From Pimelobacter simplex (GTDB lineage Bacteria; Actinomycetota; Actinomycetes; Propionibacteriales; Nocardioidaceae), in the NCBI RefSeq assembly GCF_900114845.1, contig NZ_FOUK01000001.1, positions 124,001-188,000 of the forward strand: 64,000 nt of DNA, read 5' to 3'. A program made the position numbers and the translations under genes. Within the stretch, counting starts at the first letter, position 1. Every line of letters starts with the position of its first letter. The notes beneath the pieces are model-generated. The model was not told the origin of the DNA. It searched no databases and saw only the letters and a list, made by a program, of their open reading frames with translations. Below are positions 25 through 7,204 of the stretch, piece by piece.

Positions 25-2256
25 TCAGGCGGCGGCCCGCGGGCCGACGCGGACGAGCACCTGCTGGGCATACTGCTGGATCTCGAGCTCCAGGCCGGAA
101 TCCCAGTCGCGTTCCCGGGCGAGCTCGGCGATCCGGCTGTCGGTGGCGACCAGGCGCAGCTGCAGGCCGTCCCTCCCCTCGAGGAGGGAGACGACCAGAT
201 CGGTGCCGGGGTCGACCACGGTGGTGGCGTCGACGACGTACTGTCCGAGCAGGTCGGCGGTCCCGGGGGCGATGTCGTGCGGGCCGGAGCGCACCTGGAG
301 GTTCACGTCGCGTTCCCGGGCGGTCGAGAGGGCTTGGCAGAACCAGGCGCCGATGTTGACCAGCTCGGGCGGGAGCAGGACGACCTGGCGCAGGTACGTC
401 TCCTCGAGGCCGCTGCGGTGGCGGGCCTCGGGGGAGGCGGGGTCGAGGGTGCTGCCGAGGGCCCGCAGCAGGTCGGCGGCGCTCTCGATGCCGGCCAACC
501 GCCAGCGGGCCCTCACCTGCGCGGCGGTGGCCTGGGCCTCGGCGGCCTCGTCGGCGCGCACCGCCGCCTCGTGCTCGCGGATCGCGCGTGCTGCCATCCG
601 GCGCAGCCGGAGGTTGAACAGGACCCAGCCACCGACCCACACGAGTCCGGTCGCCAGCATGACGAAGGTGACCGCCCCCGCTGCGGGCGTCGCGGTGAGG
701 GCGAACGCGGCCGCCGCGCCGACCGCTGCGTAGGCCGCCGTCCCGATCGCGACGACGCGCGCGGAGCGGGTCCCGGCCACGACGATGAAGAGCAGCATCG
801 CGGGCGCGATGCACTGCCAGGCGAGGACGTAGCCCTGCCCGAAGTCCACGCCGCTGCCGGAGACCAGGAAGGCGATCGGCGCGGTGACCACCAGCACCGC
901 GGTCATCGCTCCGGTGAGCCGGTCGTGGCGGCGCCAGCTCCGCCACGCAAGGAGCGTCGTCGTGATGACCAGCGCCGCCAGCAGGTAGTCCGGGGTGAGC
1001 TCGCCCGGGTGGTTGGCCGCGCCGAGGAAGATGCCTCCTCCGGCCAGCAGCGCGCTGATCAGGAGCGCGCCCACCATGCTGACCCGGTCGACGCCGACCC
1101 GGAAGTCCGCGGCCTCGCCCGCACCCTGATCGCCGTCGGCGCGCCACGACATGGCGGCGCGCACCCCGGCCCCCGGGGCAGTGCGCAGGTCGAAGGCGAT
1201 GCCCTCCTCGGCCAGCCGCGCGCGTACCGACGAAGCGAGCCCCCGCTCTGCCACGTCCTCGGGCGCGAAGCCCCTGCCCTGGTCACTGACGACCACGCGA
1301 ACACCGCCACCGCCGGCGCCGTCGGCCCGGATGTCGACGCTCACCCGCGCCACTCCCGCGTGCTTCTCGGCGTTGGTCACCAGCTCACCTGTCGCGCCGC
1401 CCAGGGCCGCCCGGACCCCCAGCGGCATGCCGGCCCAGAGGTCGGCGAGCGGTTGGCCCGACAGCCCGGTCAGGTCCACCGTGACCGTGCGCCGCGCGAG
1501 CGGCGCCTCGGGCGACTCGTGGGCCGTCAGGTCCAGCCCGGAGGAGCTCATCAGGTGCTCCAGCACCTGGGTGTCCGCGTGGCAGCGAGCTCGCACCGCG
1601 CCCAGATCCGAGACGGCGGACCCGCCACGAGCGACGGCCGCGAGGGTGTTGATCGCCGTGTCGTGGACCTGGCGCTGCTCCTCGGCCGCCCGGCGCATGG
1701 CCGCCGTCTGCACGTCCAGGCGCGTCCTCGCGCGCACCGCTTCGTGGTGGTTGGTGTCGAGAGATCTGGCGAACCGCAGCAGCGGCACCAGCCCCGGCCG
1801 GCCGACCACGATCGCGAGCGGCCCGTTCGCCAGGAGGAACAGCGGAAACCGCGTCCCCTGCTCCGGGTCCGCGAGGTAGATCAGCACGGCGACCGCCACG
1901 CAGCACGCCAACGAGAGGACCAGGTCGATCCGGCGTCGCAGCACCAGACCCTGGGCGACCGCCGTGATGATGAAGAGGTGGAACGTCGCTACCGCGAACG
2001 GCGTGGACGGGCCGGCGGTGTGCATCCAGTCGAAGACGAACACCGCGTACTGGAGCAAGAACACCAGCCACGCGGGGAACTCCGGCTTCGCGCAGGCCAC
2101 CGCCGCCACGACCAGCAGGGCGCCGTTGACCCCCACCACCAACATGCCGTCGTGATGGCGCTCCGGGCCGACGAAGTACGCCGCGACCACCAGCGGCATC
2201 CACACCACCATGCCGGCGAAGAACGCCCAGCGGACAGCGTCGCGGAAGCTGGCCAT
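25..2256 (-). CDS. Membrane sensor histidine kinase with duplicated architecture
   Basis: A 743-residue protein with two membrane-plus-cytoplasm modules in tandem. Module 1 has about six hydrophobic segments (residues 1-165), then a NarX/HisKA_3-like phosphoacceptor stretch QVHDTAINTL with His198, then a HATPase domain with an N box (ELVTNAEKH, near residue 290) and a G box (SDQGRGF). Module 2 has about six more hydrophobic segments (about 390-545), then a cytoplasmic tail (about 552-743) in which I see no phosphoacceptor His and no intact ATP-binding boxes. The tail is probably a degenerate kinase or dimer partner. ATG at 2256 was chosen because the hydrophobic region begins right after it. 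No response regulator is visible; one may lie left of position 25. The signal is unknown. Confidence 0.8.
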   Translation of the reverse strand: MASFRDAVRWAFFAGMVVWMPLVVAAYFVGPERHHDGMLVVGVNGALLVVAAVACAKPEFPAWLVFLLQYAVFVFDWMHTAGPSTPFAVATFHLFIITAVAQGLVLRRRIDLVLSLACCVAVAVLIYLADPEQGTRFPLFLLANGPLAIVVGRPGLVPLLRFARSLDTNHHEAVRARTRLDVQTAAMRRAAEEQRQVHDTAINTLAAVARGGSAVSDLGAVRARCHADTQVLEHLMSSSGLDLTAHESPEAPLARRTVTVDLTGLSGQPLADLWAGMPLGVRAALGGATGELVTNAEKHAGVARVSVDIRADGAGGGGVRVVVSDQGRGFAPEDVAERGLASSVRARLAEEGIAFDLRTAPGAGVRAAMSWRADGDQGAGEAADFRVGVDRVSMVGALLISALLAGGGIFLGAANHPGELTPDYLLAALVITTTLLAWRSWRRHDRLTGAMTAVLVVTAPIAFLVSGSGVDFGQGYVLAWQCIAPAMLLFIVVAGTRSARVVAIGTAAYAAVGAAAAFALTATPAAGAVTFVMLATGLVWVGGWVLFNLRLRRMAARAIREHEAAVRADEAAEAQATAAQVRARWRLAGIESAADLLRALGSTLDPASPEARHRSGLEETYLRQVVLLPPELVNIGAWFCQALSTARERDVNLQVRSGPHDIAPGTADLLGQYVVDATTVVDPGTDLVVSLLEGRDGLQLRLVATDSRIAELARERDWDSGLELEIQQYAQQVLVRVGPRAAA

Positions 2257-2393: not shown

Positions 2394-3929
2394 TCAGGGG
2401 GCCAGCACGGCACGCTCCCGGGTGACCGGAGCCGTCGCGCTGGCGAACGCGAGGTGCTCGTCGACGACGGCGCCGCGGCGCAGGACCTTCGCGTCGTTGT
2501 AGTAGTTCATCGACATCAGCCACGGCGCGGCCACGCCCTGCTTGGGCAGGGTGTCGAGAGCACGCTGGACGTAGCCGGCGCCGAAGTCGAGGAGCGGGCG
2601 GGTCTCCATGTCGGGGTCGGCGACGGGCCACACGGCGTCGTGGCCGTGCTCGTCGAGGTGGGCGAGGAGGCGGCAGAAGTAGTCGCAGAGGAGGCCGATC
2701 TTCAGGGTCCACGACGAGTTCGTGTAGCCGATCGCCATGGCGAGGTTCGGGATGCCGCTGAGCATCACGCCGCGGTACGCGACGCTCTGGCTGACGTCGA
2801 CGGCGCGGCCGTCGACGACCAGGTCGATGCCGCCGAGCAGCTTGATGTTGAGGCCCGTCGCCGTGACGATGATGTCCGCCTCGAGCTCGCGTCCCGACTC
2901 CAGGAGGATGCCGTCTTCGGTGAAGGTAGTGATGCGGTCGGTGACGACGGAGGCGTCGCCGTTGCGGATCGACCGGAACAGGTCGCCGTCCGGTACGGCG
3001 CACAGCCGCTGGTCCCAGGGGTTGTACGGCGGGTTGAAGTGCTCGTCGACGGGGAAGCCGGCGGGCAGCCGCTCCTCGTTGAAGCGCCGGATGACCTGGC
3101 GGGCCTTGCCGGGGAACCTCTGCGCGAACAGCCAGATGGCGCGCTGCTTGGCGATGTTCTTCTGCCGGGCCAGGGCGTGGCCGCGGTCGTCGCCGAACCA
3201 GCGGCGCAGGTTGTTCGCCAGCTTGTCCACGCGCGGGATGGGCATCACGTACGTCGGGGTGCGCTGCAGCATCGTGACGTGGGCGGCGTCGTCGGCCATC
3301 GACGGCACCAGCGTGACCGCGGTGGCGCCGCTGCCGATGACGACGACCTTCTTGCCCGTGTAGTCGAGGTCCTCGGGCCAGTGCTGCGGGTGCACCACCT
3401 GCCCCCGGAAGCGGTCCCGGCCCTCGAAGACGGGCGTGTAGCCCTCGTCGTAGTCGTAGTAGCCGCCGGCGCAGAACAGCCAGCCGGCGCTGAAGTAGCG
3501 CCGTTCGCCGGTGTCGGTCTGCTCCACCTCGACCAGCCAGCGGGCCGTCTCCGAGGACCACGACGCGCGCTGCACCCGGTGGTGGTACCGGATGTGCTCG
3601 TCCAGCCCGTTCTCGGTGGCGGTCTCGCGCAGGTAGCCCACGATCTGCGCGGCGTCGGCGATGGCCTCCTTCTCGCGCCACGGCTTGAACTCGTACCCGA
3701 AGGTGGTCAGGTCGGAGTCCGAGCGGATGCCGGGGTAGCGGAACAGGTCCCAGGTGCCTCCGGACGCCGCCCGGCCCTCGAGGATGACGAAGCTCTTGTG
3801 GGGGAGCTCGGTCCGCAGGTAGCGACCTGCGCCGATGCCGGAGAGGCCGGCGCCGACGATGAGGACGTCGACCTGCTCGACGTCCTCGAGGGACGACGGC
3901 GGACCGGTCCGGGCGTGACGGTGGGACAT
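2394..3929 (-). CDS. EthA-like FAD/NADPH Baeyer-Villiger monooxygenase
   Basis: A 511-residue flavoprotein monooxygenase, expected to insert one O2-derived oxygen into ketones or to S-oxidise thio compounds using NADPH. The N-terminal FAD Rossmann motif GAGLSGIGAGRYL is present. The Baeyer-Villiger fingerprint FxGxxxHxxxW appears as FRGQVVHPQHW near residue 172, and the NADPH motif GSGATA near 196. The middle and C-terminus resemble my recollection of mycobacterial EthA (for example NPWDQRLC and LSGIPNLAMAIGYTN). The ATG has an AGGAGAG ribosome site. The gene is divergent from a PucR-type regulator rather than the TetR-type EthR known beside ethA. The physiological substrate is unknown. Confidence 0.87.
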   Translation of the reverse strand: MSHRHARTGPPSSLEDVEQVDVLIVGAGLSGIGAGRYLRTELPHKSFVILEGRAASGGTWDLFRYPGIRSDSDLTTFGYEFKPWREKEAIADAAQIVGYLRETATENGLDEHIRYHHRVQRASWSSETARWLVEVEQTDTGERRYFSAGWLFCAGGYYDYDEGYTPVFEGRDRFRGQVVHPQHWPEDLDYTGKKVVVIGSGATAVTLVPSMADDAAHVTMLQRTPTYVMPIPRVDKLANNLRRWFGDDRGHALARQKNIAKQRAIWLFAQRFPGKARQVIRRFNEERLPAGFPVDEHFNPPYNPWDQRLCAVPDGDLFRSIRNGDASVVTDRITTFTEDGILLESGRELEADIIVTATGLNIKLLGGIDLVVDGRAVDVSQSVAYRGVMLSGIPNLAMAIGYTNSSWTLKIGLLCDYFCRLLAHLDEHGHDAVWPVADPDMETRPLLDFGAGYVQRALDTLPKQGVAAPWLMSMNYYNDAKVLRRGAVVDEHLAFASATAPVTRERAVLAP

Positions 3930-3968
3930 GTTCTCTCCTGAGGGGGTGGACGATCCGGGCCGAACCCA

Positions 3969-5270
3969 ATGTGCGACGGCTCTGCCCCAGCTCGCCAGGA
4001 CAATCCGTCTCAGCTCGTTCGGCGTGTGGTGCAGAATGCTGCAGTGACCGGGTCCTGGCCGTCGTCCTCGCCGCAGGTGCGCGAGCTCATCCGGCAGGGC
4101 GCCGAGATCGCGCTCCGCCTGCGTCCGGAGTGGGTGGCCGAGATCGACTCCGCCGCGCTGGCCAGTCCCGGCATGGAGGCGATCGCCGCGGACCCGGTGC
4201 TGGCCGAGGGCATCCGTCGCAACACCCTGGCCAACCTGCGGCACTGGGCCGCCGCGAACGTGCAGGCACCGGGGCTCCGGGTGCCCCCGAACCTCGACCC
4301 GGACAACCTGGAGACCGCACGCGACCTCGCCCGGCGCGGCCTCGACCGCAGTGCGCTGGACAGCTACCGCACCGGTCAGAGCAGGGCGTCGCGGCGGTGG
4401 ATGACGATCTGCTTCGAGCTCACCCAGGACCCCGACCTCCTCCACGAGCTCCTCGACGTGTCGCTGCTGTCGATCTCCACGTTCATCGACGACACCATCG
4501 ACGCCGTCGCCTCGGTCATCGAGGCCGAGCGCGACCAGCTCAAGAGCGGCAGCCACGCCGAGCGCCGCGCCGCCGTCTCCCTCATCCTCGAGCGTGCTCC
4601 CCTCAGCCGTGCCCGGGCCGAGGCGCAGCTCGGCTACCCCCTGACCGGACCGCACGTCGCGGCCGTCGTCTGGACGGCGGTCGAGGCGAGCACCACCGAG
4701 CTCGACGCCGCCGCCGAGGCCCTCGTCCAGGCGAGCGGCGCCACCCGCCGGCTCACCGTCGTCGCGAGCTCGGCGTCCCACTGGGTGTGGCTGCCCGTCG
4801 CCACGGCGCCCACCGCCCACGAGCTCGCCACCAGGCTCGTGGGGCACCCCGGCGTGAGCATCGCGGTCGGGCGGCCGGGCCGCGACATCGAGGGGTTCCG
4901 CCGCAGCCACCTCGACGCCTCCACCACCCAGCGGATGATGACGCGCCTCGCCTCGCCCCAGCGCATCGCCCGCTACCAGGACATCCAGCTCGTCGCCCTC
5001 ATGACCACCGAGCCCGCCAGTGCCGACGAGTACGTCGCCGAGGTGCTCGGCGACCTCGCGACCGCCGACCCCGAGACCCGCGACGTCGTCCTCGCCTTCG
5101 TGCAGGAGCAGTTCAACACCTCCCGGACCGCGCGACGGCTCCACGCCCACCGCAACACGGTCATCCGGCGCCTCGCCCGGGCCGACGAGCTGTTGCCGCG
5201 GCCCCTGGCCGAGCACCCGGTCGACGTCGCGGCCGCGCTCACGGTCCTCCAGTGGCGGGGCGGCAGCTGA
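3969..5270 (+). CDS. PucR/CdaR-type transcriptional regulator
   Basis: A regulator of up to 433 residues. The C-terminus carries the PucR-type helix-turn-helix (NTSRTARRLHAHRNTVIRRL), and the middle has the GGDEF-like sensing fold typical of the CdaR/PucR family. The N-terminal 150 residues are mostly helical, with no obvious small-molecule domain. The start is uncertain: ATG 3969 lies only 39 bases from the divergent monooxygenase start, and GTG codons at 4026, 4029 and 4044 are in frame. None has a clear ribosome site, and the residues before 4044 look unlike the domain. It probably controls the adjacent monooxygenase and possibly itself from the shared short promoter region. Confidence 0.78.
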   Translation: MCDGSAPARQDNPSQLVRRVVQNAAVTGSWPSSSPQVRELIRQGAEIALRLRPEWVAEIDSAALASPGMEAIAADPVLAEGIRRNTLANLRHWAAANVQAPGLRVPPNLDPDNLETARDLARRGLDRSALDSYRTGQSRASRRWMTICFELTQDPDLLHELLDVSLLSISTFIDDTIDAVASVIEAERDQLKSGSHAERRAAVSLILERAPLSRARAEAQLGYPLTGPHVAAVVWTAVEASTTELDAAAEALVQASGATRRLTVVASSASHWVWLPVATAPTAHELATRLVGHPGVSIAVGRPGRDIEGFRRSHLDASTTQRMMTRLASPQRIARYQDIQLVALMTTEPASADEYVAEVLGDLATADPETRDVVLAFVQEQFNTSRTARRLHAHRNTVIRRLARADELLPRPLAEHPVDVAAALTVLQWRGGS

Positions 5271-5917: not shown

Positions 5918-6025
5918 GCTGCGTGGCGACCCCGAATGACTAGGACGTCAGAACGCTCGGTCATGTTTCCGCCTCGCCCACCCGCGGCGGCTGCCGCGGC
6001 AACCCGATGCACCTAGCCTGGGAGC

Positions 6026-7204
6026 ATGCTGGACCTGGTCACCCTGCGCATCGCCTTCGGGCTCGTGGCCCTGAGCGTCCTGGTCCTCGTCTACGGCGTC
6101 ACGTTCCGCACGACCCGCTCGGCCTACAGCGGGTGGTGGTGCGTGTCGATCGGCTGCTTCATCCTCAGCGCCACCCTGTTCCTCTTCGACGGCACCGCGC
6201 TCCAGGTGGTGGGCAACCCCGCCGGGAACATGATGGGGGTGCTGGGTGCCGGCTGTGTGTGGGCCAGCGCGCGCTCCCTGCGCGCCGTGCCCGTGCCCCG
6301 CTGGCAGCTGGCGGCGGTGCCCGCAGTCGTCGCGGTCGCGTCGGCCCTGGGCGACCCGACTGTCGACTCCTGGTCGGGTGGCGCGGCGTTCCTGACCGGC
6401 ATGGCGCTCCTCATCGGCCGCTCGACCCTGGAGCTCGTGCTCCTGCTGCGTCAGACGGACGTGGGGGTCGACTCGCCGGCGCAGAACCGCTTCGCTCTCG
6501 TGGCGATGGCGGTGGTCTCGAGTCTCCTCGGCGCCTACTACCTGGCCCGCGCGACGGCGTTCGTCACCGTCGGCCCGCAGCACCCGGTGTTCCAGAACGC
6601 GTTCGGTGGCCAGGTCACCACGCTGCTCACCATGATCCTGCTCGTCGTCGCCACGTTCGGCATGTCCGCCTTGGCCGCGGACCAGCAGATCGCCGAGCTG
6701 CGTCGCCGCGCCACCCGGGACTCACTCACCGGGCTCCTCAACCGTGCGGAGTTCTACCGCGAGGGCCAGGTCATCCTCGATCGCGGCCGGTTCGGCACCG
6801 ATGCCGCGCTCGTGCTCGCCGACCTCGACCGGTTCAAGGACATCAACGACGACGCCGGTCATGCCGCCGGCGACGACGCCCTGACCGCGTTCGCCGACGC
6901 CTGCCGCGAGGTCATCGGACCCCGCGGGATCGTCGGACGTCTCGGCGGCGACGAGTTCGTCATCCTCACCGTCCACGGCACGGCCGAGGATCTCACCGCG
7001 ACCATCGCGCACCGCTACGCCGAGGCCGACGGGACACCCACGGTCAGCTTCGGCATCGCCTCCGTCCTGCCGGGCGACGACGTCGCCCTCGGCCTCGCCC
7101 GCGCCGACCACGCCCTGTACCGCGCCAAGGCCGCGGGCCGCGCTCAGGCCATCCGTCACGACGACCGGCCCGCGTTCCTCGTCGGTGGACGCCGCACCGC
7201 CTGA
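6026..7204 (+). CDS. Membrane-anchored diguanylate cyclase (GGDEF)
   Basis: A 392-residue protein that should make cyclic di-GMP from two GTP at the membrane. About six hydrophobic segments occupy residues 1-225, followed by a short linker and a GGDEF domain (about 235-385). The signature RLGGDEF is intact, and DLDRFKDIND, the metal and substrate stretch, is present, so activity is likely. The residues before the signature (RGIVGR) do not give an RxxD product-inhibition site. ATG 6026 was chosen because it starts just before the first membrane segment. The gene stands alone and its stop is 9 bases from the stop of the convergent LysR gene. The membrane-bound stimulus is unknown. Confidence 0.87.
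   Translation: MLDLVTLRIAFGLVALSVLVLVYGVTFRTTRSAYSGWWCVSIGCFILSATLFLFDGTALQVVGNPAGNMMGVLGAGCVWASARSLRAVPVPRWQLAAVPAVVAVASALGDPTVDSWSGGAAFLTGMALLIGRSTLELVLLLRQTDVGVDSPAQNRFALVAMAVVSSLLGAYYLARATAFVTVGPQHPVFQNAFGGQVTTLLTMILLVVATFGMSALAADQQIAELRRRATRDSLTGLLNRAEFYREGQVILDRGRFGTDAALVLADLDRFKDINDDAGHAAGDDALTAFADACREVIGPRGIVGRLGGDEFVILTVHGTAEDLTATIAHRYAEADGTPTVSFGIASVLPGDDVALGLARADHALYRAKAAGRAQAIRHDDRPAFLVGGRRTA

Follow-up and report, generated by a model that had tools for sequence, protein, structure and literature searches.

The window, a stretch of 64,000 nucleotides, corresponds to positions 124001-188000 of contig C2 in a genome of 5.63 Mb. At its left end lies a single open reading frame encoding a protein with two kinase-like halves (Table 1), whose start codon is uncertain since the N. 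carbamazepini orthologue has no Met at the same position. An earlier sequence-only reading had described two stacked membrane-kinase modules in one chain, and this layout was confirmed with about six plus six helices. The membrane segments were read from a Kyte-Doolittle plot alone, in which the peaks overlapped, and a full-length model of low confidence, whose pLDDT of 49.6 is too poor for reading the packing between the modules, had helices at places compatible with the hydropathy segments.

Table 1. The fused kinase gene, its parts and nearby genes, in window coordinates.
Feature	Position	Strand	Basis
Fused histidine kinase - pseudo-histidine kinase, 743 aa (P0001)	25..2256	-	Translation; homologues sharing this layout
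First membrane block, about six hydrophobic segments, residues 11-157	1786..2226	-	Kyte-Doolittle
Putatively active DHp region, residues 188-236; phospho-acceptor H198 at 1663-1665	1549..1695	-	H198 in 75/76 aligned sequences
Putatively active ATP-binding (HATPase_c) domain, residues 277-372; N-box 1360-1386, G1 box 1267-1284	1141..1428	-	Pfam above cut-off; N295 and D325 in 75/76 each
Second membrane block, about six hydrophobic segments, residues 387-547	616..1098	-	Kyte-Doolittle; collinear with block 1 (half-versus-half profile alignment)
Degenerate DHp region, residues 552-633; I590 (codon 487-489) faces H198; conserved E618-Q624 at 385-405	358..603	-	Profile alignment; no His there in 36/36; R623 in 76/76
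Degenerate ATP-binding-like domain, residues 634-742, without N-box or G-box	31..357	-	AlphaFold model (pLDDT 60.9) matching histidine-kinase CA domains
Flavin monooxygenase	2397-3941	-	Kinase neighbour
PucR-type regulator	3969-5267	+	Kinase neighbour
GGDEF protein	6017-7201	+	Near kinase

The N-terminal module carries the features of a HATPase-type sensor histidine kinase, i.e. an H-box His and an HATPase_c domain with N and G1 boxes. The assignment of H198 and of the ATP boxes made in the sequence-only reading was correct: H198 is followed by D199 and N203, HATPase_c (PF02518) matched residues 286-348 with 29.2 bits (cut-off 26.4) as the sole Pfam family in the protein, and both N295 and D325 are present. 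The label "NarX-type" held as a resemblance but not as a family assignment, given that Pfam HisKA_3 gave no match to the window protein at E<=10 and one relative reached 13.8 bits against a cut-off of 24. The module appears kinase-like in function, yet outside HisKA_3. The C-terminal module, in contrast, fails as an active histidine kinase, with acceptor His, N-box and G-box all missing.

To the left, where a response regulator had been expected, the neighbouring gene encodes a convergent short-chain dehydrogenase, followed by an AraC regulator. When the neighbours of the window kinase were compared with the flanks of two orthologues (L039 and L086), the sole match was an aldehyde dehydrogenase (L001:2252-3784) with 42-43% identity.

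Common origin of an intact and a degenerate half

Profiles of the N-terminal and C-terminal halves (35 sequences) aligned collinearly over 281 columns with a probability of 98.0 (E 2.4e-13), compared with 15.3 (E 0.0017) for a reversed profile, at most 0.1 for eight column shuffles and at most 0.4 for eight block shuffles. The cytoplasmic modules alone gave 94.6 (E 6.7e-8; controls at most 2.4) and the membrane blocks alone just 28.6 (E 6e-4; reversed 3.3). The alignment, which ends within the N-box helix, places I590 opposite the acceptor histidine, and a His is found one residue further on in four of the 36 pseudo-modules. Patterns resembling HDxxN, ExxxN or DxGxG were absent from the pseudo-modules of all 40 loci read in other families (see below). 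In the rows of the window protein the signalling helix and DHp region are gapless from residue 160 to beyond H198/I590, so both DHp hairpins could sit at equal height. The C-terminal half is thus a degenerate duplicate that shares its origin with the N-terminal half.

Ordinary kinases of the same genome served as controls, 11 of the 20 fetched having passed a pattern filter. The kinase-module profile matched these with a probability of 99.7 (E 1.6e-26) and the pseudo-module profile with only 7.2 (E 0.0049), indicating that the pseudo-module is far diverged.

Residues 550-742 gave no useful match in Pfam, NCBIfam or among PDB sequences. The AlphaFold model of this segment, built from three sequences, consists of four helices followed by strand-helix-strand-strand-helix-strand. 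All 50 Foldseek matches listed (of 475) were histidine kinases or proteins with related domains (phytochrome A, CheA), with a best E of 1.1e-4, query TM of 0.23-0.39 among the matches listed, and 6 of the 475 at E <= 0.001. VIA-align superposed the model on the ATP domain of Mtb DosS with Z 8.3 (110 residues, 3.3 A), but the unrelated Amuc_1100 also reached Z 7.0, and the fold result therefore backs the profile result but would not stand alone. At this moderate model quality the module has the histidine-kinase fold (DHp helices and a Bergerat-type CA domain), as indicated by its homology to the N-terminal half, the Foldseek matches and the VIA-align score. The degenerate, kinase-like tail of the sequence-only reading was thereby upheld by profile and fold comparison.

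In a search of 96 genomes (own included) long matches were obtained to a second copy in the own genome (contig C9, 36% identity) and in the genomes G014, G042 and G029; the named relatives are N. carbamazepini and Nocardioides sp. LHD-245, with 64-65% identity in the best segment and residues 2-739 matched. Seven homologues with identities of 27-65% to the window protein have the same architecture, one of them (L003) cut by a frameshift in the second module. In the alignment of these eight sequences the invariant residues of the kinase module include H198, D199, N203, E291, N295, H299, D325, G327 and G329, and those of the second module are R584, W585, A588, G589, P606, E618, E619, L622, R623, Q624, P630, L632, V633, W638, F639 and A646. 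Among 76 paired sequences, the single exception for both H198 and N295 was L198, which is cut by a contig end, and that for D325 was L109; in 70 sequences the residue after H198 was D (65) or E (5). Among three orthologues dN/dS was 0.24-0.39 for the C-terminal module, where two of the three comparisons end at residue 645, and 0.26-0.34 for the N-terminal module. The second module is thus maintained, under purifying selection similar to that on the kinase half.

Two deviating copies were noted. The kinase half of the distant relative L109 (L109:4373-6328) has no G1 box, and both halves may be degenerate there. The frameshift in the orthologue of Nocardioides sp. LHD-245 lies near position 5923 of L003, inside the pseudo-module, and is due to sequencing error or decay.

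Relatives as fusions and as separate genes

The second-module profile had matches in 18 of 215 genomes of the genus Nocardioides, one of which (G011) had just a partial match (L119), leaving 17 genomes with 28 loci, the window and L001 being one place. L119 and a second weak partial match (G014:C11:881080) were kept outside the family count. These and the following genome counts are lower bounds, as part of the first-look candidates was scored (15 per genome in the genus search and 8 in the class and phylum samples). Both modules were encoded in one uninterrupted open reading frame in 26 of the 28 loci, the exceptions being L003/L086 (the same gene twice), with the second-module frameshift, and L104, with its halves in different frames. 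This ruled out a sequencing fusion. L104 and L113 were rejected as clean splits, since their halves lie in different frames, possibly through frameshifts; L116 was left out (N runs), and L115 is the sole clean two-gene case among these four. L111 is a single kinase hit by both profiles. At L102:3473-8268 two fused kinases in direct tandem are followed by two regulators.

The gene could also be decaying or artefactual, i.e. an accidental fusion or one with a functionless, pseudogenising second half, for which its orphan position (see below) and the frame disruptions in L003, L104 and L113 could be cited. The predominance of uninterrupted loci, the selection on the second half and its 16 invariant residues are all in conflict with decay, and we regard this explanation as very improbable.

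Outside the genus, even samples yielded matches in 17 of 394 genomes of the class and 9 of 396 of the phylum (own genus and weak cross-hits included). A diverse second-module profile was then run against two actinobacterial families. It matched 36 of 120 genomes in the first and 50 of 101 in the second, and 32/49 and 47/71, respectively, of the matches listed there were in open frames of about 380-510 residues. Forty loci were read (L151, L152 and L198-L235; 39 from these two families and L152 from a third), which is a non-random sample because they were picked among the stronger hits, partly for their short and partly for their long frames. Each of the 40 has the pseudokinase immediately after a kinase of the N-terminal-half family on the same strand, as a separate gene in 31 and fused in nine. 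In 30 of the 31 separate pairs (exception L211) the pseudokinase has a candidate start codon 4-17 bases upstream of where the kinase stop codon ends. A NarL-like regulator adjoins the pair in 37 loci. It follows on the same strand in 35, lies upstream in L152 and is divergent in L217; none is adjacent at L201 (contig end), L212 and L229. Among 20 lower-scoring hits that were read, 14 had the order kinase-pseudokinase-regulator and the remaining six (L246, L247, L255, L257, L258 and L259) were a single kinase with a regulator, cross-detected at E 2.5e-10 to 1.6e-5. These six loci imply that the parental kinase family falls within reach of the pseudo-module profile, that a pseudokinase is not present everywhere and that the kinase family can work alone. 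In a plasmid collection 18 records matched (17 Streptomyces and one Nonomuraea), and the four of these that were read all had the same gene order.

The sequence-only reading had named separate genes in homologues, together with a sequencing fusion, as evidence against a composite protein. The outcome was mixed: homologues frequently have the halves as two genes, yet fusion is genuine and recurrent, which excludes a sequencing artefact. In a FastTree tree of 75 sequences the fused or separate state changed at least four times, indicating that fusion or fission happened repeatedly. Distances among the kinases and among the pseudokinases (mirror-tree) had a correlation of 0.909, as expected from shared descent through co-inheritance alone.

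The occurrence of the two halves as neighbouring genes beside a shared regulator in many relatives suggests an overlooked signalling system made up of an active kinase and a dead one. None of five standalone pseudokinases reached the cut-off of a Pfam or NCBIfam family, and three annotated Streptomyces records label the genes as ATP-binding protein, hypothetical protein (the pseudokinase) and LuxR-type or response regulator. The analysis thus predicts a role for the set of genes to which these pseudokinases belong, and indicates that searches with kinase domains alone miss half of the system. In the open-access literature, subscription papers being outside the scope, no description of the pair was found, which is weak evidence of absence.

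Regulators and surface-protein genes

Adjacent regulators were detected with a profile of Nocardioides-type regulators (a strict pattern gave one match). Such a regulator adjoined the kinase in 16 of the 28 Nocardioides loci, and all 18 regulators aligned from other loci had the receiver Asp and Lys. The profile detected no regulator within about 8 kb to the left or 62 kb to the right of the window copy, nor adjacent to its orthologues L039 and L086 within the fetched flanks. The own-genome paralogue on contig C9 has one directly downstream, whose NCBIfam similarity to UhpA (51.2 bits, under the cut-off) marks it as NarL-like and whose receiver and HTH scores fall just short of the Pfam cut-offs.

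Given that the window copy is an orphan, its partner regulator would have to lie elsewhere in the genome. Two strong matches to the profile, C9:60997-61626 and C7:518479-519108 (349 and 348 bits; next 92), are 84% identical to each other and are candidates, and the unpaired regulator on C7 would be the best candidate partner for the unpaired kinase. This C7 gene (L260:7479-8108) has no kinase of the family beside it and adjoins a PucR regulator and a protein with a fatty-acid-desaturase fold and a rubredoxin domain, which we read as AlkB-like.

The pseudo-module might instead be mainly a regulator-binding or phosphatase platform in the manner of DivL, binding the NarL-like regulator or its phosphorylated form and tuning the neighbouring kinase. 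This would agree with the position of the regulator gene directly downstream of the pseudokinase in 35 of the 40 loci and with the strongly conserved second-helix motif around R623, and DivL is among the Foldseek matches of the tail model (rank 5, E 9e-4), as are many kinases. Speaking against it, no regulator lies beside the window copy or, within the fetched flanks, beside its two orthologues, and we consider it somewhat unlikely as the main function.

In Nocardioides the fused kinases are often located amid genes for large surface proteins with thioester (TED), T-Q ester bond and SdrD_B domains, and for sortases. Adhesin/sortase islands flank L034, L035, L036, L037, L087, L088, L091-L098 and L104, and in three places (G014:C18 65-104 kb, G234:C3 14-53 kb and G227:C1 581-622 kb) three copies of the fused kinase are about 16-22 kb apart with adhesin genes between them. 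Adhesin profiles from five loci matched 19 of the 28 Nocardioides stretches (five by construction) versus 0 of 75 stretches from other families. TED was present in 13 of the 17 kinase-positive genomes versus 7 of the 198 others (Fisher p = 7e-13, uncorrected for phylogeny), and within 12 kb of the kinase in 10 of the 13. The presence of SdrD_B was uninformative, as it is too common in the genus (155/215 genomes). The window copy has no adhesin neighbour.

Proposed arrangement and comparison with known systems

The best reading of the window protein is an active kinase with a dedicated pseudokinase, here fused and without a regulator nearby. The functional-looking kinase with a built-in pseudo-partner proposed in the sequence-only reading is well supported, as the halves are homologous and relatives keep them as overlapping neighbours or as fusions. 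As that reading also suggested, such a partner might replace homodimerisation or sense a second signal. We consider it probable that the protein is the fused version of an actinobacterial kinase/pseudokinase pair, in which an active half and a dedicated non-catalytic partner form an asymmetric bundle and the regulator is encoded elsewhere. Judging from its motifs, the N-terminal half would be a sensor kinase with six membrane helices that is catalytically competent and takes H198 as its autophosphorylation site. Its C-terminal counterpart, which apparently arose by duplication of the entire first half (with membrane block, signalling helix, DHp and a now remnant ATP domain) and lost acceptor and nucleotide-binding residues, would act as the non-catalytic partner. 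A heterotypic four-helix bundle is likely, as predicted from the pairing and the fusion, and in the most likely arrangement the two DHp hairpins of one chain would pack into this single asymmetric bundle. The chain would then carry its own heterodimer, with a single active site and a single acceptor His, and because the lone ATP site and the lone acceptor share a module, any phosphorylation inside such a bundle would have to occur in cis. The second membrane block and the pseudo-module may set or read the signal allosterically and may help dock the regulator. Output would presumably go to a NarL-like protein of the kind encoded next door in most relatives read.

Alternatively, the active halves of two chains could homodimerise while the pseudo-halves pair as an appended, modulating second sensor, giving a dimer of dimers with about 24 helices. 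Homodimerisation is described as usual for sensor kinases (PMC9491836), and relatives with a single kinase and no pseudokinase exist. By itself, however, this arrangement leaves unexplained the strict pairing of the separate genes in the loci read, their repeated fusion in the same order, and the kept DHp hairpin and equal helix register of the pseudo-half, and it appears unlikely.

On a broader scale, Actinobacteria may hold a widespread, unnamed three-component class whose kinases would function only when heterodimerised with a dedicated pseudokinase from an overlapping gene. Several lineages would have fused the two into a chain that is an asymmetric dimer by itself, having a single acceptor His and a single active site, and in Nocardioides the class would control covalent thioester adhesins of the cell surface. 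We give this generalisation an even chance.

Most work on sensor kinases treats them as symmetric homodimers, and the case that both protomers are required has come largely from engineered mutants. A natural family with a live and a dead half, present as separate genes and as fusions, would permit direct tests of cis versus trans phosphorylation, half-site activity and allosteric signalling.

We classify the pair as two-component signalling with a dedicated, often fused pseudokinase. The best NCBIfam match of the kinase halves of two relatives was the MacS family sensor kinase (NF047322; E 4.2e-25 and 5.3e-26), but with 88.7 and 91.7 bits of the 300-bit cut-off they lie outside that family, whose model of 367 positions covers one kinase alone; the window protein itself had no match to NF047322 in the NCBIfam search. 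The kinase-like proteins of the pairs DivL/CckA and RetS/GacS are not fused to their partners and have other sensory domains, and we know of no collinear internal duplication in them. The likeness to these pairs is that a kinase-like protein modulates a partner kinase, and the difference is that the partners are separate chains (PMC9491836 for DivL-CckA; PMC12189002 for RetS-GacS, which form heterodimers). A frameshift pseudokinase, ChrS of Corynebacterium glutamicum, similarly influences a paralogous kinase in an actinobacterium, but it arose by frameshift in an evolved strain and does not represent an ancient conserved family, and for truncated ChrS no significant heterodimerisation was seen (PMC9491836).

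AbrC1/AbrC2/AbrC3 of Streptomyces coelicolor resembles the present pair in having two kinase genes and one regulator at one actinobacterial locus. Both AbrC kinases autophosphorylate (H214 and H270), and they are 57% identical in protein sequence, with the AbrC genes non-overlapping at distances of 114 and 308 bp (PMC4428217). With both of its kinases active, AbrC was rejected as the same system, given that the second module of the window protein is without catalytic motifs. The nearest described case found is FasB/FasC/FasA of group A Streptococcus, which likewise combines two kinase-like proteins with one regulator and for which a heterodimer or higher form is reported, with one member proposed to be a pseudokinase (PMC12675982). 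A comparable layout at one locus was present in 37 of the 40 relatives' loci but not at the window copy. The division of labour differs, however: in the same source FasC is the likely acceptor (H246) and FasB supplies the kinase domain (PMC12675982), whereas here one module has kept both features and the other has lost both, and the two halves are often joined in one chain.
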